DNA of 64,000 bases from Salinispora oceanensis (lineage in GTDB: Bacteria; Actinomycetota; Actinomycetes; Mycobacteriales; Micromonosporaceae). Location of the stretch: contig NZ_KB911579.1 of the NCBI RefSeq assembly GCF_000383575.1, positions 3,684,575-3,748,574 on the forward strand. Direction: 5' to 3'. Position numbers and translations under genes: made by a program. The notes beneath the pieces were generated by a model that had not been told where the DNA came from, did no database searches, and saw only the letters and a list, made by a program, of their open reading frames with translations. Shown in pieces: positions 22,113 through 31,209 of the stretch; position 1 is the stretch's first letter, and each line of letters opens with the position of its first letter.

Positions 22113-22970
22113 TCAACCACCGACCGAGAAGATCCCCGTCGGGGGCGGTGCGGAGTCGGTGGCGTCGGTGTCGTGGACGACCGGGGCGCCGCCGGTGAAC
22201 CGGACCAGCTCCTCGCCGGCGAGCACCCGGCCCGGGAACCAGTCGCCGGAGACCCGCCGGGTCAGCTCGGGCACCGGCGGGGTGCTGCGGCCGGCGAGCA
22301 GCACGAGGTTGCCGAAGCGGCGGCCCCGCAGCACCGCGGCGTCGCCGACCAGCGCCGCCTTGGGTAGCGCTGATCGGACGGTGGCGACCTGTCGGCGGGC
22401 GTGCCGCAGCGGCGGGCCGTCGGCGATGTTCGCCAGGTACCAGCCGGTGGGTCGGAGGACGCGGGCCACCTCGGTGGCGAACTCCACCGAGGTCAGGTGG
22501 GCGGGGGTGCGGGCGCCGGCGAAGACGTCGGCGACCACGATGTCGATGCTGGCGTCCCGGAGGCCGGTGAGGGCTTCCCGGGCGTCGGCGACGCGTACCC
22601 GTAGCCGTGGGTTGGGGGGCCAGGGCAGCTCCTGGCGGACCAGCTCGACCAGCGCGCCGTCCACCTCGCAGACCCGTTGGGTCGAGCCGGGACGGGTGGC
22701 GGCGACATACCGGGGCAGGGTCAGCGCGCCGCCACCGAGGTGCAGCAGGCGCAGCGGGGCGCCGGCCGGGGCGAGTAGGTCGATCGCGGCGCCGAGCCGG
22801 CGCACGTACTCGAACTCCAGGTGGGTGGGGTCGGTGAGATCCACATGTGACTGCGGGGCGCCGTCGAGCAGCAGCGTCCAGGAGCCCGCCCGGTCCGGGT
22901 CGGGGACCAGCTCGGCCATCCCCGTGTCCACCTCGACGGCGGCCCGGTCGGTGGGGCGTTGGCGCCCCAT
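22113..22970 (-). CDS. spermidine synthase-like methyltransferase-fold protein
   Basis: This 285-residue protein has the spermidine/spermine synthase Rossmann fold. LRLLHLGGGALTLPRYVA is the nucleotide-binding loop, VCEVDGALVELVR the acidic second strand, and DIVVADVFAGARTP replaces the usual catalytic DxxDP segment. It may therefore bind decarboxylated or normal S-adenosylmethionine, but polyamine synthesis is not certain. ATG 22970 overlaps the stop of the NurA-like gene (ATGA), so it is translated with the DNA-processing operon. Confidence 0.78.
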   Translation of the reverse strand: MGRQRPTDRAAVEVDTGMAELVPDPDRAGSWTLLLDGAPQSHVDLTDPTHLEFEYVRRLGAAIDLLAPAGAPLRLLHLGGGALTLPRYVAATRPGSTQRVCEVDGALVELVRQELPWPPNPRLRVRVADAREALTGLRDASIDIVVADVFAGARTPAHLTSVEFATEVARVLRPTGWYLANIADGPPLRHARRQVATVRSALPKAALVGDAAVLRGRRFGNLVLLAGRSTPPVPELTRRVSGDWFPGRVLAGEELVRFTGGAPVVHDTDATDSAPPPTGIFSVGG

Positions 22971-23956
22971 CAGAGCGCACCGCCGGGTGGCTGCGCGGCG
23001 GCGGGCGTGGCGCTGCGCGCGGCGGCGACCAGGGCGCGGTGCAGCAGCCGGGAGTCCCCGATCATCCGTCGCAGGCGGCGTTCCAGGCCGGCGATGGGGA
23101 TCAGATTCTGCGGTGCCCGAGGGTCCTTGTACGGGGTGGAGGCGAAGCGGGGCAGGGTCACCACGGACAGGTCCGCCAACGCGACCGCCGCCGCGATGTC
23201 CAGCTCGGTGGAGCACTCCACCCGCACGATGCCCGCCCAGGGAGCGCCACCGGCGACCGGCAGCCGCAGGTACCACGACCAGCCGCCCCACGCGGTGCCC
23301 AGCCGGAACACCGGGGAGCGCTGCCCGGCCGTCAGCCCGGTGACCACCGCGGTGAGCCGCGCGTCCAGGTATTGGCTGTGTTGGGTCTTCACGTAGCCGA
23401 GGGTGCGGGGTAAAAGCCGCCGGTTGCGCAGCGGCCCGTCCACCACCAGCAGATCCTCGTCGCTGCGGGCGGCGCTGGAGACCGCCACCTCCAGCGCGGT
23501 CAGCGGGCCCTGCACCGCCGCCGGCAGCTTGGCCAGCTCGCCGCTGCCGCCAACCTGGTGCACCGGGTAGTGGACGTTGCCGGCGTGCACGTCCACCGCG
23601 GACGGGCTGGCGGTGAAGAGCCCCCGCTCCACCCGGGCACCGGCCAGCTGGGCGGCGCCGCGCTCCAGGTCACAGCGGACCACCCCGGCCGCGTACGAGG
23701 CGGCCAGCCCCGGGTACGAGACCCCGTCGGGCTCGGTCAGCCACAGGCTGGCGTCGTTCCGGCGTACCCCGTCAACGAGGAGCACCACGGCCGGGGCGTG
23801 CACGCCGGGCCGGGGCCCGACCGCCCGCCAGTCGACCGCGGGCAGCTCGTGGTCGGCCTCGACCCGGGCGCTGCTGGGCGCGGCCGGGCCGCCGGCGGCG
23901 GCCTCGAACGAGGCCCCGTACGCCGGGTCCCACGCGTCGACGAAGAAGCGGGTCAC
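22970..23956 (-). CDS. NurA-like nuclease
   Basis: This 328-residue protein fits the NurA 5'-3' nuclease family. It has an Asp-rich first strand with VVLLVDGVRR (Asp at about 62), a second metal-site Asp in LLVVDGPLRNRR (about 173), and a C-terminal catalytic region around KTQHSQYLD and HxxxLD-like residues. GTG at 23956 follows GGAGGCGA. It sits behind sbcC with a 28-nt gap and ahead of a spermidine-synthase-like gene. NurA works with the HerA hexameric ATPase, whose likely gene is three genes upstream, in resecting DNA ends. The assignment rests on motifs plus this context. Confidence 0.78.
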   Translation of the reverse strand: MTRFFVDAWDPAYGASFEAAAGGPAAPSSARVEADHELPAVDWRAVGPRPGVHAPAVVLLVDGVRRNDASLWLTEPDGVSYPGLAASYAAGVVRCDLERGAAQLAGARVERGLFTASPSAVDVHAGNVHYPVHQVGGSGELAKLPAAVQGPLTALEVAVSSAARSDEDLLVVDGPLRNRRLLPRTLGYVKTQHSQYLDARLTAVVTGLTAGQRSPVFRLGTAWGGWSWYLRLPVAGGAPWAGIVRVECSTELDIAAAVALADLSVVTLPRFASTPYKDPRAPQNLIPIAGLERRLRRMIGDSRLLHRALVAAARSATPAAAQPPGGAL

Positions 23957-23984
23957 CCGGGTCGCCTCCGCCCACCGTCGGCGT

Positions 23985-26459
23985 TCACCGGCCGGTCCGT
24001 TCGATCCGGGCCGACCGGGCGTCCTTGCGGACCTCGAAGCGGACCGGTATGCGCTCGGCCAACGCCGGCACGTGGGTGACGACGCCCACCATCCGGTCCC
24101 CCCGCGCGGCCAGGTTCTCCAACGTGGCGGCCACCGTGTCGAGGGTGGCGGTGTCGAGCGTGCCGAATCCCTCGTCCAGCACGATGGACTCCAGGCTGGC
24201 CGCGGTGGTCGACATCCCGGCGAGCTGTTCGGCCAGGGCCAGTGCGAGCGCCAGCGAGGCCTGGAAGGTCTCCCCGCCGGAGAGGGTGCGTACGCCCCGG
24301 CGCAGGCCGGCGTCGTGGTGGTCCACGACAAAGAACTCCCCCTTGTCGTGGACTAGGTCGTACTGGTCGCCGGAGAGTTCGCGCAGGATTGTCGACGCCC
24401 CGTCCACCAGCAGGTCGAGCGCCTCGGCGAGCAGCCACCGTTCGAAGTTGTTCGCCCGCAGGTGCCCGGCGAGCGCGCGGGCCACCTGCGCCTCACGCTC
24501 GTAGGTGGCGCGCTGCTCGCGCAGCTCACCGGCCTGCTCCCGGCGGCGGGTCACTTCCCGCAGCTGCGCCTCGGCCCGTTCGAGGGCGACCGCCGTGTCG
24601 CGGCCTGGGTCGTCGGTGGCCGGCACCCCGGCCGCCTCGAGGAGCCCGCCGATCCGCGCTTCCACCGCGGCTACCTGCGCCTCGGCCGCGCTCACCGCCG
24701 CCACCCGGTCGGCGCGCTCGGACCGCCGCCGCGCCACCTCGGCGGTGGCCCAGTCGGTCAGCGTCGTCCACGCCGCCGCCACATCCTCCCGGTCGGTGGC
24801 CGGCGGGCCGAAGCGGGCCAGCCCGTCCCGGGTCGTGTCGAAGGCCCGCCAGGTCTTACGGAGTCGCTCCTGCGCGGAGTCCACCGCGGCCCGGGCCCGG
24901 CGGGCCTCATCCCGGCCGGCGCGGACCGCCGCCGCCGACTCCTCCAGCTCCTGCCGCAGCCGCCCGTGCTCGGCCAACGCCTGGTGCAGCGCCGCCGGCT
25001 CCGGGGCGTCGGCCAGCTGGGTGTGCAGGGCGGCCAGCCGCGCGTCGAGCTGCTCCTGCCGGACCCGCGTCGCCACCAGCTCCCGTTCCCGCTCGCGGAC
25101 GGCGCTGTCCCGCTGCGCCACGGTGGTCTTGGCCGCCTCGCTGGCCGCCCGCGCCGCCTTACCGGCCGCGATCGCCGCCGGCACCGCCGACGTGGCCGGG
25201 ATCGCCGGGACCTGGGCAACGGTCTGCTCGCAGACCGGGCAGGTGGTCCCGTCGTGCAGCGGCGCCCGCACCGCCATCGCCAGGTCGGTCGCCTTGGCCT
25301 GCTCATGCGCCTGGAAGGCCGCCGCCAGGTCGGCCTCGGCCCGCTCGGCCGCCGCCTGTGCCGCGGTCAGCTCCGCCGTCGCCGCCGCGTGCCCGGCCTG
25401 GGCCGCCGCCACCGCCACCCGGACCGTCTCGGCCTCGCCGGCCAGCTCCGCCCGGTCCTCGTACGCCCGCAGCAGCAGGCGCAGCGCGCTCTCGTCGCCG
25501 GCCGCGGCCAGCTCGCCGCGAAGCTTCTCCTCCCGCTCCTCGGCGAGCGCCACCACGGTCGTGGCCTCATCCGCGTCGGTCTGTGCGGTCGCCCCCGCCC
25601 GGGCGACCTCGGCCACCCCGGCGGGGGCGCGTACGGCGTCGAGCACGGCCAGGTCGGTGTCGAGGGCGGTCAGCGCCCCGCTCGCCTCCCGCGCCGCGGT
25701 GTGCGCCGCCGCCTGTTCGGGAACGGCGGCGGTGACGGCGGTGGCCAGCTCCCGCATCTGCTCGACGCGGGCCGACACCTCGTCGAGGGTGGCGTCGTCG
25801 ATGTCGGTGAGGCCGGTGAGGGTCTGGTTGACGACCTCGAACTTCGCCTCGGCCTGGCTGGCCCGGGTCCCCGCCTTCTCCCGTACCTGCTCGTAGACGC
25901 CGAGGCCGAGTAGGTTGACCAGGATCTCCTGCCGTTTCGCCGGTCGGGCGTGCAGGAAGTCGGCGAACTGCCCCTGCGGCAGCAGCACACAGCTGGTGAA
26001 CTGCTCATACGGCAGCCCGACCGCCGTCAGCACCGCGTCTTCCATCTCGGCGACCGTGCCGGCGAGCACCTCGCCCAGGTCCTCCGGGCTCAGCCCGGTG
26101 TCGAGCTTGGCCGGGTCGAAGCCGGGCGGCATGAGCTGGAGGCCGGCGCCGGAGGTCTTGACGTTGCCCCGGCTGTCCCGCCGGACCACCCGGGTGGCCA
26201 CGTAGCGGTCGCCGGCCGACTCGAAGACCAGCCGGACCCGCGCCTCGGCCGCCGACGGGGCGAGGGCGTTCGCCAACCCGCGGGTGCCGCCCCACCGGGG
26301 TACGGTGCCGTAGAGCGCGAAGCAGATGGCGTCCAACACGGTGGACTTGCCGGAGCCGGTCGGCCCGACCAGCGCGAAGAAGTCGGCGTCGGTGAAGTCG
26401 ATCGTTGTCGCCGCCCGGAAGACGGTGAAGCCGTCGAGATCCAGTCGCATCGGCCGCAT
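23985..26459 (-). CDS. sbcC: SbcC / Rad50-like SMC-family ATPase
   Basis: This 824-residue ATPase has Walker A GPTGSGKSTV at about residues 32-41 and a Q-loop FTSCVLLPQGQFADF. Long Ala/Glu/Arg-rich coiled coils flank a zinc-hook CPVC at about 406-409, and the ABC signature LSGGETFQASLALALALAEQ and Walker B SIVLDEGFGTLD lie near the C-terminus. It pairs with SbcD to process DNA hairpins, protein-blocked ends and long palindromes. ATG 26459 overlaps the sbcD stop (ATGA). It is shorter than many SbcC proteins because the coiled coils are short. Confidence 0.95.
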   Translation of the reverse strand: MRPMRLDLDGFTVFRAATTIDFTDADFFALVGPTGSGKSTVLDAICFALYGTVPRWGGTRGLANALAPSAAEARVRLVFESAGDRYVATRVVRRDSRGNVKTSGAGLQLMPPGFDPAKLDTGLSPEDLGEVLAGTVAEMEDAVLTAVGLPYEQFTSCVLLPQGQFADFLHARPAKRQEILVNLLGLGVYEQVREKAGTRASQAEAKFEVVNQTLTGLTDIDDATLDEVSARVEQMRELATAVTAAVPEQAAAHTAAREASGALTALDTDLAVLDAVRAPAGVAEVARAGATAQTDADEATTVVALAEEREEKLRGELAAAGDESALRLLLRAYEDRAELAGEAETVRVAVAAAQAGHAAATAELTAAQAAAERAEADLAAAFQAHEQAKATDLAMAVRAPLHDGTTCPVCEQTVAQVPAIPATSAVPAAIAAGKAARAASEAAKTTVAQRDSAVRERERELVATRVRQEQLDARLAALHTQLADAPEPAALHQALAEHGRLRQELEESAAAVRAGRDEARRARAAVDSAQERLRKTWRAFDTTRDGLARFGPPATDREDVAAAWTTLTDWATAEVARRRSERADRVAAVSAAEAQVAAVEARIGGLLEAAGVPATDDPGRDTAVALERAEAQLREVTRRREQAGELREQRATYEREAQVARALAGHLRANNFERWLLAEALDLLVDGASTILRELSGDQYDLVHDKGEFFVVDHHDAGLRRGVRTLSGGETFQASLALALALAEQLAGMSTTAASLESIVLDEGFGTLDTATLDTVAATLENLAARGDRMVGVVTHVPALAERIPVRFEVRKDARSARIERTGR

Positions 26460-27607
26460 CAGTGCTCGACCTCCTCGAAGAGCTCGTCGAAGAGCCCCCG
26501 GACGTCGTCGTCGGCGTGCCCCCGGTCGTCCAGGTAGTCGCCGAAGAGCTCCCGCGGCGACCGGCCGGCGCGCTGGGCGACGCGGGCGCCGCCGCCGGGC
26601 GCGGACACCAGCTCCGGATCGATCCTGATCTCCAGGGCGCGGGGGAGGAGCTCCTGCACCTCCTCGCGGAGGCCGGCCCGGGGCTGCTCCCGGACGAAGA
26701 CCCGCAGCCAGGCGTCGGGCACCTCGACCTCGGCGAGCTGCGCCAGCGTGCCCCGGACGGTCCGCAGGGTGGCGGCGGCGGGGATGGGCACCTCGCGCAC
26801 CTGGGCGGCCGTGGTGGCGGACACCTCGACCACGGTCACCGACGGGACGTTCTCCTGCTCGCCGAAGTCGACCGCCAGCGGGCTGCCGCTGTAGCGGATC
26901 GGGCACCCGCCGTCGACCCGCTGGGCGCGGTGCAGGTGACCGAGGGCGACGTAGTGCGCGGTGCCGGGGAAGACCGTCGCCGGCACCGCGTAGCCGAGGA
27001 CGGTGTGCGCGTCCCGCTCGCCGCCGCCGGTCGCCGCCCCGACCACGGTCAGGTGGGCGGTGACCAGGTGCACCCGGTTCGGCTCGGTGAAGCCCTCGGT
27101 CAGCCGGGCGACGATCCGCCCCAGGTGGTCGGCGTACGTCTGGTTCGCCTCGGCGGCGGTCAGCTCATACATCTCCACGGCCCGGACCGCGTACCGCTGG
27201 GACAGGAACGGCAGCGCGGCGAGCTGCCAGCGTTCACCGCCGCCGGTCGTACCGTCGATGATGTGCTCGTCGGGGTCTTCGCGGACGTTGCCCCGCAGGG
27301 TGATCCCGGCGGCGTCGGCCCACGGCCGCAGCGCGTCCAGCGCCGCGCCGTTGTCGTGGTTGCCGCCGATCGCGACGACATCGGCGCCGGTACGGCGCAG
27401 CGCGGTTAGCGCCCGGGTGACCAACCGGGTCGCCTCGGGGGTGGGGGCGGCGGTGTCGTAGAGGTCGCCGGCGATGATGATCAGGTCCGGCGCTTCCCGC
27501 CGGGCCACCTCGATCACTCCGGCGAGGACGGCCTTCTGCTCCTCGGCCCGGGACTGCCCCTTGAGGACCTTGCCGACGTGCCAGTCGGAGGTGTGCAGGA
27601 TCTTCAC
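26459..27607 (-). CDS. sbcD: SbcD / Mre11-like exonuclease
   Basis: This 382-residue metallophosphoesterase carries all core motifs: MKILHTSDWHVGK, IIAGDLYD, AIGGNHDN, VTAHLTVVG and ALGHLHRAQ, which supply the two-metal site. A capping domain follows. It is the Mre11-type nuclease subunit that acts with SbcC on DNA ends. It lies 13 nt behind the HerA-like gene and its stop overlaps the sbcC start, so the four genes read as one operon. Confidence 0.95.
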   Translation of the reverse strand: MKILHTSDWHVGKVLKGQSRAEEQKAVLAGVIEVARREAPDLIIIAGDLYDTAAPTPEATRLVTRALTALRRTGADVVAIGGNHDNGAALDALRPWADAAGITLRGNVREDPDEHIIDGTTGGGERWQLAALPFLSQRYAVRAVEMYELTAAEANQTYADHLGRIVARLTEGFTEPNRVHLVTAHLTVVGAATGGGERDAHTVLGYAVPATVFPGTAHYVALGHLHRAQRVDGGCPIRYSGSPLAVDFGEQENVPSVTVVEVSATTAAQVREVPIPAAATLRTVRGTLAQLAEVEVPDAWLRVFVREQPRAGLREEVQELLPRALEIRIDPELVSAPGGGARVAQRAGRSPRELFGDYLDDRGHADDDVRGLFDELFEEVEH

Positions 27608-27620
27608 GGCTCAAATCACC

Positions 27621-29363
27621 TCAGAATGGGATGTCGTCGTCACCGGAGCCCACCACGGCGAACGGGTCGGCCGACTGGGTGATCGACCGGAGGGTCTGGG
27701 AGGGCGCCGCGCCCGCCTCCGCGACCCGCGTCGCCCAGGCGGGGAACGGAAACTCCAGGCAGAGCGGCACCGGGATGTCGGGCTGGTTGACGAACATCGT
27801 GCCCGGCTTCGCCAGCAGGGCCCGCTGCCGCTGCGCCGGCGGGAGGAAACCGTACTCGGGACGGGAGGCTTCGGCCGGGTCGAGCCGACCCACCACCCGG
27901 ACCGCCGAGTTCGTGACGATGCGCCGCTCCACCTCGCTGGCGGTCTGCTGCGCGCCGACCAGGATCACCCCGAGGGAGCGGCCCCGCTCGGCGATGTCCA
28001 GCAACACCTCCTTGATCGGGGAGGAGCCCTCGCGGGGGGCGTACTTGTTCAGCTCGTCGAGGACGACGAAGAGCAGCGGCTTGGCCGTGCCGGTCTTTTC
28101 CTTGCGCTCGAACTCGCTCTTGAGCGTCACGCCGACCACGAACCGCTGCGCCCGGTCCGGCAGGTTGTGCAGGTCAACCACGGTGACCTGGGCTGACTCC
28201 GCGGTGTTGATCCGGTGCGGGCGCCGGGTGGCCAGATCGCCGCGGATCAGCCGGGACAGGTCCTTCTTACTGCCGATCAACCGGCGGGCGAAGGCGTTGA
28301 TGGTGCCGAGGCCGACCGCGCTGCCGGCCCAATCGCCCCGGGTCTCGTCGTCGTTGAGCTGCTCGACGATGTGATCGACCAGGTCGGCGTAGCTGCCGAG
28401 GCGGACCCCGTCGATGCTCACCCCGCCGTCGGCGGGCTGCGCGTAGCGGGCCAGGTGGGCGGTGACCGAGTGCACCACCATCGTGTACTGCTGGCGCTCG
28501 TCGTCGGCGTCGGCGAAGACGTACGGCAGGAGCCGGTCGGCGCAGAACTCGTCGAGCGTCCAGTAGAAGCTGTCCACCCCGCTGAGCCGGCTGCTCACAT
28601 CCGGCGTGCCGGTGGCGTCGCCGGCCCGGGGCGGCGCGTAGACCCGTACGTCGGGGAAGGCCGCGGCGTCCAGACCGAGCCGCGCGTACGCCGTGCGGGT
28701 GGACTCGTCCAGCCGGGTGTTGGGGTGGTCGAGGAAGAGCAGGTCCTCGCCCTTGACGTTGAAGATCAGCGCCTTGGCGTTGACCGCGTCCCCGCCCAGG
28801 ACGCCGGAGCGGAAGACCGAGTAGAGCAGGAAGGTGGCGAAGCTCGTCTTGGTGGCGACGCCGGAGATGCCGGAGATGGAGACGTGCGCGCCCCGGGTGC
28901 CGTCGAGGAAGTCGGCGTTGAGGTAGACCGGCACCCCGTCGCGGCCGGTGCCCATCGGGATCCGCCGCTCCATCCGGTCGAAGTGCAGCGCCCGGGCCCG
29001 GGCGTCCCCCTCGGCCCGGTGCACGACGGCGCCCGGCGACGGCGGAACGTAGAGCTCCGGGTCGACCCGGGTGGTGGTGATCTCGGCGGCCTCCTGCACC
29101 TGGGCGGGGAGCATGCCGTCGGCGATCGCGAAGACGTCGGAGTCGAACTGGGCGCCCTCGTGTCGGGCGCGCACCTGGGTGACCACCCCGGCGATCGTCA
29201 CCGGCTCCCGGTCCGGCAGCTCGCGGCGGGTGGCCACGACGTCGTCGAGCTGCAGGAAGCTGGTGGGGGAGACCGCCGTCCAGAACTGCAGCGGGGTGGC
29301 GTCGGCGGTGCCGAGCACCCGGCCGACCAGCTCGCCCGGGCTGTCCGCGGCGTCGTCGGTCAT
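27621..29363 (-). CDS. HerA-like hexameric DNA-translocating ATPase
   Basis: This 580-residue FtsK/HerA-superfamily ATPase has an N-terminal HAS-barrel-like beta domain (TFLQLDDVVATRREL to about residue 110) and a degenerate P-loop, GISGVATKTSF, near residue 166. Walker B is LLFVVLDELNKYA near 432, and a sensor/arginine-finger region lies at IAERGRSLGVILVGAQQTASEVERRI. It heads a run with sbcD, sbcC and a NurA-like nuclease gene on the same strand. HerA normally drives NurA to resect 3' tailed ends, and that role is inferred here from context. The P-loop departs from GxxGxGK(T/S), so ATPase activity deserves a check. Confidence 0.85.
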   Translation of the reverse strand: MTDDAADSPGELVGRVLGTADATPLQFWTAVSPTSFLQLDDVVATRRELPDREPVTIAGVVTQVRARHEGAQFDSDVFAIADGMLPAQVQEAAEITTTRVDPELYVPPSPGAVVHRAEGDARARALHFDRMERRIPMGTGRDGVPVYLNADFLDGTRGAHVSISGISGVATKTSFATFLLYSVFRSGVLGGDAVNAKALIFNVKGEDLLFLDHPNTRLDESTRTAYARLGLDAAAFPDVRVYAPPRAGDATGTPDVSSRLSGVDSFYWTLDEFCADRLLPYVFADADDERQQYTMVVHSVTAHLARYAQPADGGVSIDGVRLGSYADLVDHIVEQLNDDETRGDWAGSAVGLGTINAFARRLIGSKKDLSRLIRGDLATRRPHRINTAESAQVTVVDLHNLPDRAQRFVVGVTLKSEFERKEKTGTAKPLLFVVLDELNKYAPREGSSPIKEVLLDIAERGRSLGVILVGAQQTASEVERRIVTNSAVRVVGRLDPAEASRPEYGFLPPAQRQRALLAKPGTMFVNQPDIPVPLCLEFPFPAWATRVAEAGAAPSQTLRSITQSADPFAVVGSGDDDIPF

Positions 29364-29523
29364 CGGGTCACTCCGTGGGGCTGGGGGGCGAGGTCGGCAG
29401 ACACGTCCTGCATCCTGCCCGAGACCTACGACCAGCCGCCACGTGACGCGGCGGAGACCACGCCGCGCCTGCTATCGGCGAATTCGCCACGAGTCAGGCG
29501 AGAGCTGGGCGATGCTGTAACGG

Positions 29524-31209
29524 ATGAAGCTGCGGGAGAGGTGGCTGCGGGAGGAGTGGCTGCGGACGCCCCGCGGTCGGTTCAAGGCGCTGGTCGCACT
29601 GGCGGCGGTGCTACCGGCGGTGGAGGCGACGATCATCGCAGTGCTCGGGTTCCAGGCTGTGCGCGGGCTGTCGCCGCAGGTGAGCGCCGTCTGGCCGTAC
29701 GGCACCTTCCAGGAGCTGCGCTGGCTGTTCGTCTACCACCGGACCATCCCCGGGTTCTTCATCACGTTGGTGGGGATGTCGGCGCTGCGGGGAGTCCTCA
29801 CCACCGTCCTGGCGAACCTGGCCTGGCCGGACGACATCCCCCGTCCGTCGTGGCGCTGGCTGCTGCGGCGCAACATCTGGATCGCCCTCCTGACCGCGGT
29901 GCTCCTCTCGCCCTGGGTGGCGCTGGCGATGGCCTTCGCCACGACCGGGCTCTCCTGGTATCTGATCGCCTCGCTGCTGCCGTTGCTGCTGCTCGCCCCG
30001 TTCCTGCTGCGGGCCGGGGTGGCCGCGCACTGGTGGCGGGGTCTGCCGCGGCTCGAGGTGGTGGGCTGGGCGTGGCTGAACTTCATCGTGCTCACCATCG
30101 GCGGTGCGGTGCTGTCGGCGGTGCCCATCTGGTGGGGTGTCCCGTTGGCCGCGTTCTGGGGTGCGGTCAACGGCCTGCTCTGGCGGAAGAGCGTCGCCGC
30201 CGCTCTGGCCCCCGGCCGGGTTCGCCTCCGGCTCGTGCCGGTGGTGCCGCTGTTGGTGGCGCTCATCCTGCTCAGCTTCCCGGCGATGCCGCTGGCGGCC
30301 GAGCGGGTCCAGGGCGGGCGCGGCGGGTGGCGACCGCCGATCATGATGGAGACGTTGCCGGACTCGGTCCCGTACGCGGTGATCGCCCTGGGCGGGCACG
30401 ACTCCGAGTACGACGGTGAACCGGCGGTGGATCCGCGGGTGGAGCGGTTCTCCTACCTCGGGCTGGATGAACAGAACCGGCCGTTGCCGTACACGGCGGT
30501 CGCCACCCACCGGTCATTGGGCGACAGCGCGGCCCTGTTGGCGGAGCACGTCGAGGTCCTGCACGAGCGGACCAACCGGCCGATCGCCCTGCTCGGGCAC
30601 AGCGAGGGGGCCATGGTCGCCCGGACCTACCTGGAGCGGTGGCCGATGACGGAGGTGGAGGCGGTGCTGCTGTTCAGCCCGCTGGTGATGCCGGGCCGGG
30701 TGTACTACCCGCCGGCGGAGATCAGGCGGGGGTGGGGCGTCGTGGCCGGTTGGGAACTGCGCGCGCTGCAGGCGCTCTGGAACCTCACCGACACCTCGGA
30801 CGAGGTGCCGGACCAGGATTTCATCCGCTCGTTGCTGGCTGACGCCCCGTTCTACCGAAACCGTACGCTCTGCCCGGTGGCGGGGGTGCGGATGGTGGCT
30901 TTCCTGCCGACGGTCACCGCGATCGAGGCGCCGCCCGGCCAGTACCACCGGATCCCGGTGTACGAGTTGCCCGCGTTCCACGGTGAGCTGGTGGGCCGGG
31001 CCGACGTCGCGGACCTGGTGCTCGACTTCCTCTCCGGCGAGCCGGTGCAGCGGTCCGAGATGCAGTACGAGGTGCTTCAGCGTGTCGGTTCGGCCTGGCA
31101 GCCACCGCCGTTGGCCCTGGGGATCAACCCGGTCTGGTCGGCGGGGCGGGAGGCGGATCCCGCCTTCACCGGCCGGATCTGCGAGGCCCGCGACGCCGGG
31201 CCGAGATAG
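29524..31209 (+). CDS. membrane-anchored alpha/beta hydrolase
   Basis: This is a 561-residue protein. The first half has about six hydrophobic segments (residues about 20-280) that look like a polytopic membrane domain. The second half is an alpha/beta hydrolase with the nucleophile elbow LLGHSEGAMVARTYLE and an acid/His pair towards the C-terminus (PVYELPAFHGELVG). The substrate is unknown; lipid or ester hydrolysis at the membrane is an inference. The start at 29524 has no good ribosome binding site and could lie a few codons downstream. It converges on the RibD-like reductase gene. Confidence 0.72.
   Translation: MKLRERWLREEWLRTPRGRFKALVALAAVLPAVEATIIAVLGFQAVRGLSPQVSAVWPYGTFQELRWLFVYHRTIPGFFITLVGMSALRGVLTTVLANLAWPDDIPRPSWRWLLRRNIWIALLTAVLLSPWVALAMAFATTGLSWYLIASLLPLLLLAPFLLRAGVAAHWWRGLPRLEVVGWAWLNFIVLTIGGAVLSAVPIWWGVPLAAFWGAVNGLLWRKSVAAALAPGRVRLRLVPVVPLLVALILLSFPAMPLAAERVQGGRGGWRPPIMMETLPDSVPYAVIALGGHDSEYDGEPAVDPRVERFSYLGLDEQNRPLPYTAVATHRSLGDSAALLAEHVEVLHERTNRPIALLGHSEGAMVARTYLERWPMTEVEAVLLFSPLVMPGRVYYPPAEIRRGWGVVAGWELRALQALWNLTDTSDEVPDQDFIRSLLADAPFYRNRTLCPVAGVRMVAFLPTVTAIEAPPGQYHRIPVYELPAFHGELVGRADVADLVLDFLSGEPVQRSEMQYEVLQRVGSAWQPPPLALGINPVWSAGREADPAFTGRICEARDAGPR

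Follow-up and report, generated by a model that had tools for sequence, protein, structure and literature searches.

A conserved herA-sbcD-sbcC-nurA operon of Salinispora oceanensis probably encodes a bacterial end-resection machine working beside AdnAB

We analysed a stretch of 64,000 nucleotides (the window) from Salinispora oceanensis (assembly GCF_000383575.1, contig NZ_KB911579.1, positions 3,684,575 to 3,748,574 of the forward strand). Within it, the region 22970-29363 harbors four genes transcribed on the minus strand in the order herA, sbcD, sbcC and nurA, which we read as a probable operon for the resection of double-strand breaks. The features found at the locus are given below in the direction of transcription, numbered from the first letter of the window and with the evidence in brackets.

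29411..29461, minus strand: conserved element of 51 nt before herA (79 upstream regions aligned)
27621..29363, minus strand: herA, encoding a bacterial-type HerA (ATPase and translocase of double-stranded DNA), 580 aa (phmmer against 7f6d_B, E 1e-149)
26459..27607, minus strand: sbcD, encoding an Mre11-type nuclease, GTG start, 382 aa (TIGR00619, E 5.8e-50, and motifs)
23985..26459, minus strand: sbcC, encoding a Rad50-type ATPase with a CxxC hook, 824 aa (TIGR00618, E 5.1e-83, below the cut-off; motifs)
22970..23956, minus strand: nurA, encoding a bacterial-type RNase H-like nuclease, GTG start, 328 aa (phmmer, profile, Foldseek and residues)
22113..22970, minus strand: fifth gene, spermidine-synthase/methyltransferase-like, 285 aa (NF037959, E 3.7e-27)

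A first-pass annotation, made from the sequence of the window, had placed four end-processing components in one same-strand run, and all four open reading frames are indeed present on the minus strand at these coordinates. It had also described the junctions as ATGA overlaps or gaps of 13-28 nt. The gaps were confirmed, with 13 nt between the herA stop (27621) and the sbcD GTG (27607), and 28 nt between the sbcC stop (23985) and the nurA GTG (23956), but sbcD and sbcC overlap by a single base, common to the sbcD stop and the sbcC ATG, within TGATG (26461-26457) and not ATGA. The nurA gene and the fifth gene also overlap by one base (TGATG, base 22970).

The match of the herA product to HerA of the Deinococcus radiodurans HerA-NurA complex (7f6d_B) covered residues 10-308 and 317-550, and no relevant Pfam family reached its cut-off on the window protein. 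Residue correspondence was obtained by aligning window HerA and NurA to the 7f6d chains, using the residues named in PMC9960219. D. radiodurans HerA (drHerA) residues K175, T176, D220, D487, E488, R495 and R552 correspond to K172, T173, D207, D436, E437, R444 and R501 in the window, and all are identical; D436/E437 form Walker B, and R444/R501 are the translocation arginines. The P-loop GISGVATKTS (K172/T173) had been called odd. Every letter of it is shared with drHerA, where K175 and T176 contact phosphate and Mg (PMC9960219), so that it is normal for the family and a degenerate P-loop was rejected. In an alignment of 80 HerA rows (two of the 82 sequences, shorter than 450 aa, were left out), the form G-x-S-G-V/I/L-A-T-K-T-S/T was present in 80/80, and the Walker residues were also kept in 80/80. 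HerA proteins of four Salinispora species, the nearest relatives, were 98-99% identical to that of the window. Among the named residues, R96 of drHerA is not kept (E94 in the window), a difference that counts against the functional reading; mutating R96 was without effect in drHerA (PMC9960219). The window protein is a bacterial-type HerA, and would by analogy be a hexameric, DNA-dependent ATPase that translocates double-stranded DNA.

The NurA call had been said to rest on VDG motifs and context. This was rejected, since direct sequence, profile and fold matches place the fourth protein with NurA. With phmmer it matched 7f6d NurA at E 1.4e-20, and a profile built from 69 NurA sequences matched 7f6d NurA at 1.4e-56 and, at 2.2e-18, Thermotoga TM1739 (1zup), which PMC9960219 describes as a bacterial NurA. 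Archaeal NurA proteins were not matched by this profile at E<=1. An AlphaFold model was computed with only the window protein and those of its close relatives as input (34 close sequences). This structure prediction for 22970-23956 also places the protein with NurA, the only PDB matches of the low-confidence model (mean pLDDT 52.7) at E<=0.001 in Foldseek being three NurA chains, 7f6d NurA at 6.4e-11 and two 1zup chains at about 1e-6. D. radiodurans NurA (drNurA) residues D53, K201 and R309 correspond to D62, K190 and R280 in the window, and D62, D173, K190 and R280 were invariant in all 131 rows of a NurA alignment (6 of the 137 frames were left out by length or start); W9 of the window was kept in 128/131. 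Several results on NurA point the other way. The low confidence of the model is one, and drNurA W8 and F13 fall outside the alignment. Moreover, the Pfam family PF09376 (NurA) gave 13.5 bits on the window protein for a cut-off of 21 bits, and no match when searched in the window's own genome. At E<=0.01, PF09376 matched 23 of the 69 NurA sequences without finding the window protein, and it was positive in 7 of 14 control genomes, four of which were archaea.

The identities of SbcD and SbcC, as first annotated, were upheld. SbcD scored 170.4 bits against TIGR00619, above the cut-off of 77.65, carries the motifs DWH8, GDL47, GNHD82 and GHLH223, and is the sole TIGR00619 match in its own genome (E<=1e-5). 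SbcC, with 824 aa for the 1043 model positions of TIGR00618, scored 279.6 bits, below the cut-off of 478.5. It contains the expected Walker A GPTGSGKS32, CPVC407, SGGE727 and IVLDE759, with ATPase motifs at both ends, and its gene adjoins sbcD.

HerA is patchy in the class and near-universal in the family of the window. It was found in 199/200 Micromonosporaceae genomes, the single miss being a genome 86% complete, in 21/394 genomes of the class (E<=1e-30), three of them from the window's own genus, and in 111/396 genomes of the phylum (E<=1e-10). For gene order, frames were read from their 3' ends, because the 5' ends of stop-to-stop frames mislead (long GC-rich frames start early). The loci studied were 80 from close relatives (named loci, which are close kin and not independent), 20 family loci and 40 phylum loci chosen by hand from longer lists, and 18 class loci, which are all the class matches outside the genus. 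The order HerA-SbcD-SbcC-NurA was seen in 66/80 close-relative loci, the other 14 ending within 2.9 kb after herA, so that it was kept in 66/66 where enough contig was available. It was also present in 19 of the 20 family loci, each of which represents a different further genus; in the remaining one, L195, the four genes are all there but their frames look scrambled. Among class loci, 16/18 had it, the other two running off the contig. The four-gene order is thus not unique to one strain. Among the 40 phylum loci, 14 had HerA-SbcD-SbcC-NurA, 21 had NurA-HerA-SbcD-SbcC, and 5 had neither: L152 is cut by a contig end, in L153 and L154 (genus g22) sbcD follows herA on the same strand at distances of 14.2 and 10.7 kb, and L190 and L191 have a diverged HerA. 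Up to about 5 kb of other DNA lies between herA and sbcD in some phylum loci. The 77 strong HerA matches of the phylum were used to count sbcD linkage, the 34 weaker ones of the 111 being left out. In 69/77 of these genomes sbcD lay downstream of herA, on the same strand and within 16 kb; in the remaining 8, it was on another contig in five and SbcD was not found in three. These results support that the four genes form one operon, and chance linkage is excluded since the gene order is conserved. In G009, of the same genus g22, 2.8 kb separate herA from sbcD. Genomes of family f18 (e.g. L191) have HerA-like proteins about 30% identical to window HerA, with many partial matches, and L191 is without a linked four-gene set. 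These HerA-like proteins perhaps belong to a different HerA subfamily.

We then compared operon SbcD with stand-alone SbcD from 20 loci (19 genomes), chosen by hand from a longer list, in a tree of 98 rows. The 42 Micromonosporaceae and class operon rows grouped at 97/100, and the 24 Micromonosporaceae rows at 100/100. Of the 20 chosen stand-alone SbcD, 17 formed their own group at 100/100; of the three that fell outside it, two were placed next to operon SbcD. The deeper branching order of this tree is uncertain, and it contains long branches that join one another. From this grouping, SbcCD of the Micromonosporaceae and class operons seems to be a separate lineage from the stand-alone form usual in actinobacteria. 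Genome G182, of the same class, contains two SbcD-type genes (L220 and L221) and is without a HerA match; one of the two has a long branch and falls outside the main group of stand-alone SbcD.

AdnAB is an end-resecting motor-nuclease, a UvrD-type helicase with a PD-(D/E)XK nuclease, and belongs to another protein family than HerA-NurA. It is encoded elsewhere in the window's own genome, at about 1.03 Mb on G000:C1, by adjacent open reading frames that matched chains of 6ppu and 7sjr, which we take to be mycobacterial AdnAB, at 3e-244 and 1e-173. The annotation had suggested a resection route next to or instead of AdnAB. The first half of this proposal holds, and replacement of AdnAB by the four-gene set was rejected for this genome, AdnAB being present. 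In the phylum, AdnB was found (E<=1e-60) in 45 of the 77 strong-herA genomes and in 50 of the remaining 319 (of these 319, 34 carry a weaker HerA match); the threshold was strict and two candidates were scored per genome, so that the 32 herA genomes without a match may still have AdnB. From these counts, there is no sign of mutual exclusion between HerA and AdnAB.

The residues by which HerA and NurA contact each other in D. radiodurans were also compared, and the differences count against the functional reading. The acidic NurA-binding triad D78/E80/D81 of drHerA corresponds to D76/F78/A79 in the window, two of three being changed, and the basic drNurA contacts H89, R92, R121, K303, H305 and R337 are replaced by L, G, V, T, Y and A. 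Retained are K299 (as R), K306 (K), R336 (R) and H124 (H), with R117 and R339 unaligned. Since these contact residues are replaced, a complex of the drHerA mode is only putative here. The NurA-binding motifs of HerA are described as conserved in Deinococcus and poorly alignable in other bacteria (PMC9960219); the acidic triad is therefore not family-defining. The changes could mean that HerA-NurA is vestigial or inactive, but we consider this very improbable: NurA D62, K190 and R280 and the HerA Walker residues are without exception in the two alignments, and the interface of nurA-last loci mostly follows one non-random pattern. F78 was kept in 24/24 Micromonosporaceae and in 28/30 other nurA-last loci, with A or L adjacent to it in the same proportions (24/24 and 28/30). 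In nurA-first loci, the first of these positions was F in 9/21 and the second R in 13/21. From these sequences, the HerA-NurA contact may be more hydrophobic, in the nurA-last branch only.

Next, we looked at the region upstream of herA. A block of about 45-50 nt was conserved in 79 close relatives (window included), its flanks not being conserved, and its CAGGATG end was present in 76/79. The commonest core among relatives, CTGTCGTAC-8nt-CAGGAT, resembles the RecA-independent damage promoter, whose consensus is tTGTCRgtg-8nt-TannnT (PMC5656591). The activator PafBC acts via this type of motif, termed RecA-NDp (PMC6789036, PMC8223512). In the window's own genome pafB and pafC adjoin pafA, and two adjacent open reading frames match PafBC chain 6sj9 at 4.9e-48 and 8.7e-51, the second also matching PafC chain 7p5x_AX at 4.5e-80. 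The recA gene of this genome carries CTGTCGGAC-8nt-TAGCGT. Boxes of the form TGTCR-N(3+s)-YANNNT were then counted within 250 nt upstream of the first gene, at spacings s from 2 to 14. The relaxed YANNNT was chosen after viewing the Micromonospora element, and the strict TANNNT is the published consensus. Four of 158 loci, with less than 255 nt upstream, were left out, and 76 loci lay outside the close-relative set. At s=8, the relaxed box was present in 30 of these 76 loci, compared with 0-4 loci for any of the other 12 spacings, and the strict box in 21/76, compared with 0-1. On the reverse strand, 3/76 had a box. As controls, 18 of 1100 random pieces of the same loci had a box, and the box density over the loci was 0.011 per region, true sites included. 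Among phylum loci, herA-first ones had the box in 7/18 and nurA-first ones, before nurA, in 9/21, with the same counts for the relaxed and strict forms. Other genera of the family had the relaxed box in 11/20, and close-relative loci in 72/78 (as the CAGGAT variant).

Part of this survey weighs against damage control of the operon. The strict box was rare in the other family genera (2/20) and absent from the close relatives (0/78), and class loci had few boxes of either kind (3/17 relaxed, 3/17 strict). In the window, no match to the relaxed pattern was found upstream of herA. The box there, TGGTCGTAG-8nt-CAGGAT (29434-29412), is one base off the TGTCR core and one off TAnnnT, the Salinispora core being GGTCG instead of TGTCR; the box of the window and of five close relatives (four Salinispora and G575) reads GGTCGTAG, and the window box score of 8/12 is reached by 274 sites of the window. 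Taken together, the promoter sequences suggest that the operon is probably damage-induced through the LexA-independent activator PafBC in many relatives, damage induction in Salinispora itself being the least certain part of this proposal.

The same type of box, with 8-nt spacing, was found before 14 of the 20 stand-alone sbcD genes (L212-L231), starting 29-34 nt before the predicted start, a distance suggesting damage-induced transcripts that would have very short leaders. Damage control of sbcCD thus looks general and shared by the operon, and by the same count the box may belong to sbcCD and not to the four-gene set, which is a further point against a joint function. The four genes would then serve two functions under one promoter, SbcCD clearing hairpins or protein-blocked ends and HerA-NurA acting elsewhere (e.g. 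with RecJ or in DNA transfer), with linkage reflecting co-regulation only. Work on other bacteria fits such a division: in Thermus, the genes next to nurA-hepA seem unrelated to DNA metabolism, and HepA influences both transformation and the donation of DNA (PMC5448004), and drHerA stimulates RecJ (PMC4663267). Against it, herA and sbcD stay linked in 69/77 genomes and across two gene orders, the SbcD lineage of the class operons is apart from most sampled stand-alone SbcD, and archaeal Mre11 interacts with HerA (PMC2288612). We therefore hold two separate functions to be unlikely.

A genome-wide search for the upstream element (up to 3 mismatches) gave 246 sites, compared with 88 for the reversed control; the sole exact site was the one before herA, and the sites did not point to a regulon. 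In the window, a perfect 12-bp palindrome also precedes herA, but it was dropped, being present in 0/78 relatives. A scan for the sigma-70 consensus gave 0 promoters (0.2 in shuffles), and the three terminator-like sites were all on the opposite strand.

An anti-phage defence module was also considered, in which a HerA-nuclease complex would degrade invading DNA with SbcCD as the sensor. Weak PADLOC matches, all to models of one system, were obtained for HerA (mad8, 2.8e-8), SbcC (mad3, 1.9e-24) and the fifth gene (mad2, 1.4e-9). With the HerA models of other systems, HerA matched at 4.1e-6 or weaker, and TdpAB, another HerA-nuclease pair, showed a weak likeness to the NurA model (Foldseek E 0.075). 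These mad8, mad3 and mad2 matches likely reflect shared superfamilies. NurA itself had no PADLOC match at E<=1, a mobile defence gene would not be expected in 199/200 genomes of the family and in a fixed order, the operon carries the only SbcD found in the genome, and the PafBC-like box in relatives indicates DNA repair. Defence is thus quite improbable.

Altogether, we read the operon as a bacterial double-strand-break resection machine that stands beside AdnAB and is likely PafBC-induced in many relatives, with a probability of roughly 0.77. In the proposed mechanism, SbcCD would recognise and trim a blocked or hairpin end. The HerA hexamer, threaded by the duplex, would pump it in an ATP-driven manner into the NurA dimer, which would unwind the duplex and cut chiefly the 5' strand, leaving the 3' single strand for RecA. 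The machine would work beside AdnAB, using the only SbcD found in the genome. The gene identities, the retained catalytic residues, the conserved linkage, the presence of AdnAB and PafBC in the same genome and the spacing-specific box before the first gene of many loci are computed results. The enzymatic steps, the association of HerA with NurA and their joint action with SbcCD we infer from what is known of D. radiodurans and archaea. A point against the reading is that in D. radiodurans NurA/HerA reportedly make only a small contribution to radiation resistance (PMC4663267). A wider proposal, to which we give somewhat less than an even chance, is that much of Actinomycetota has a single dedicated resection pathway of HerA, NurA and SbcCD, PafBC-induced and LexA-independent, with its own SbcCD lineage, which can run beside AdnAB and whose contact in nurA-last loci would be hydrophobic (D-V-F-A/L for D-V-E-D in Deinococcus).

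The resection operon was then compared with known systems. D. radiodurans NurA-HerA (7f6d, 7wrw and 7wrx; PMC9960219) consists of the same families, with an identical P-loop and ten named residues shared, but E80/D81 of drHerA are F/A in the window and several basic drNurA contacts differ. The window operon also includes sbcD and sbcC, a link of sbcCD to drHerA-NurA being called open in PMC4663267. The archaeal mre11-rad50-herA-nurA operon (Sulfolobus and others; PMC4351679, PMC2288612) brings the same four components together; it is UV-induced (PMC8708640, PMC5448004), and joint resection was proposed for it (PMC4351679, PMC2288612). The annotation had spoken of the archaeal set in a bacterium. 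This is right for the four linked components, but HerA, NurA and SbcCD of the window are of bacterial type (for NurA, the profile matched no archaeal NurA at E<=1), and a PafBC-type box is present in many relatives. In Oceanithermus profundus, nurA-hepA-sbcD-sbcC (PMC5448004) contains the same four genes in the order of the NurA-first actinobacterial loci. It is the only bacterial precedent seen for the four-gene set in the accessible text, and differs in being described for one organism, a member of Thermales, whereas Micromonosporaceae have nurA last. NurA and HerA homologs were noted in Actinobacteria in PMC8708640, the accessible part of which states no gene order. Among the literature matches listed (titles and abstract openings, with subscription papers outside the scope), none described the four-gene operon or a PafBC-like box in actinobacteria. 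The four-gene kind is thus already known from archaea and Oceanithermus, and the actinobacterial form is a new variant.

Whether a bacterial HerA-NurA works with SbcCD as the archaeal one does with Mre11-Rad50 is the question that PMC4663267 calls open for D. radiodurans. It is directly testable in cultivable Micromonosporaceae because they have the four genes in one operon. The same organisms allow asking why a cell bearing AdnAB keeps a second resection machine, and the promoter pattern links the operon to the PafBC response of actinobacteria to DNA damage, which gives a prediction of when the cell uses it.

Finally, the genes around the operon were inspected. The fifth gene follows nurA in 61/66 close-relative four-gene loci; of the other five, four stop no more than 4.8 kb from herA and L124 no more than 5.2 kb from it. 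In loci of other Micromonosporaceae genera it was downstream in just 8/20, for which reason it was rejected as a core part and is probably a lineage-specific tail outside the machine. On the other side of the operon, a divergent gene (29524-31209, plus strand) starts 160 nt from herA. Its product is hydrophobic in its N-terminal part, as judged by eye, and has a weak alpha/beta-hydrolase match (Hydrolase_4, 5.4e-6) slightly under the cut-off.

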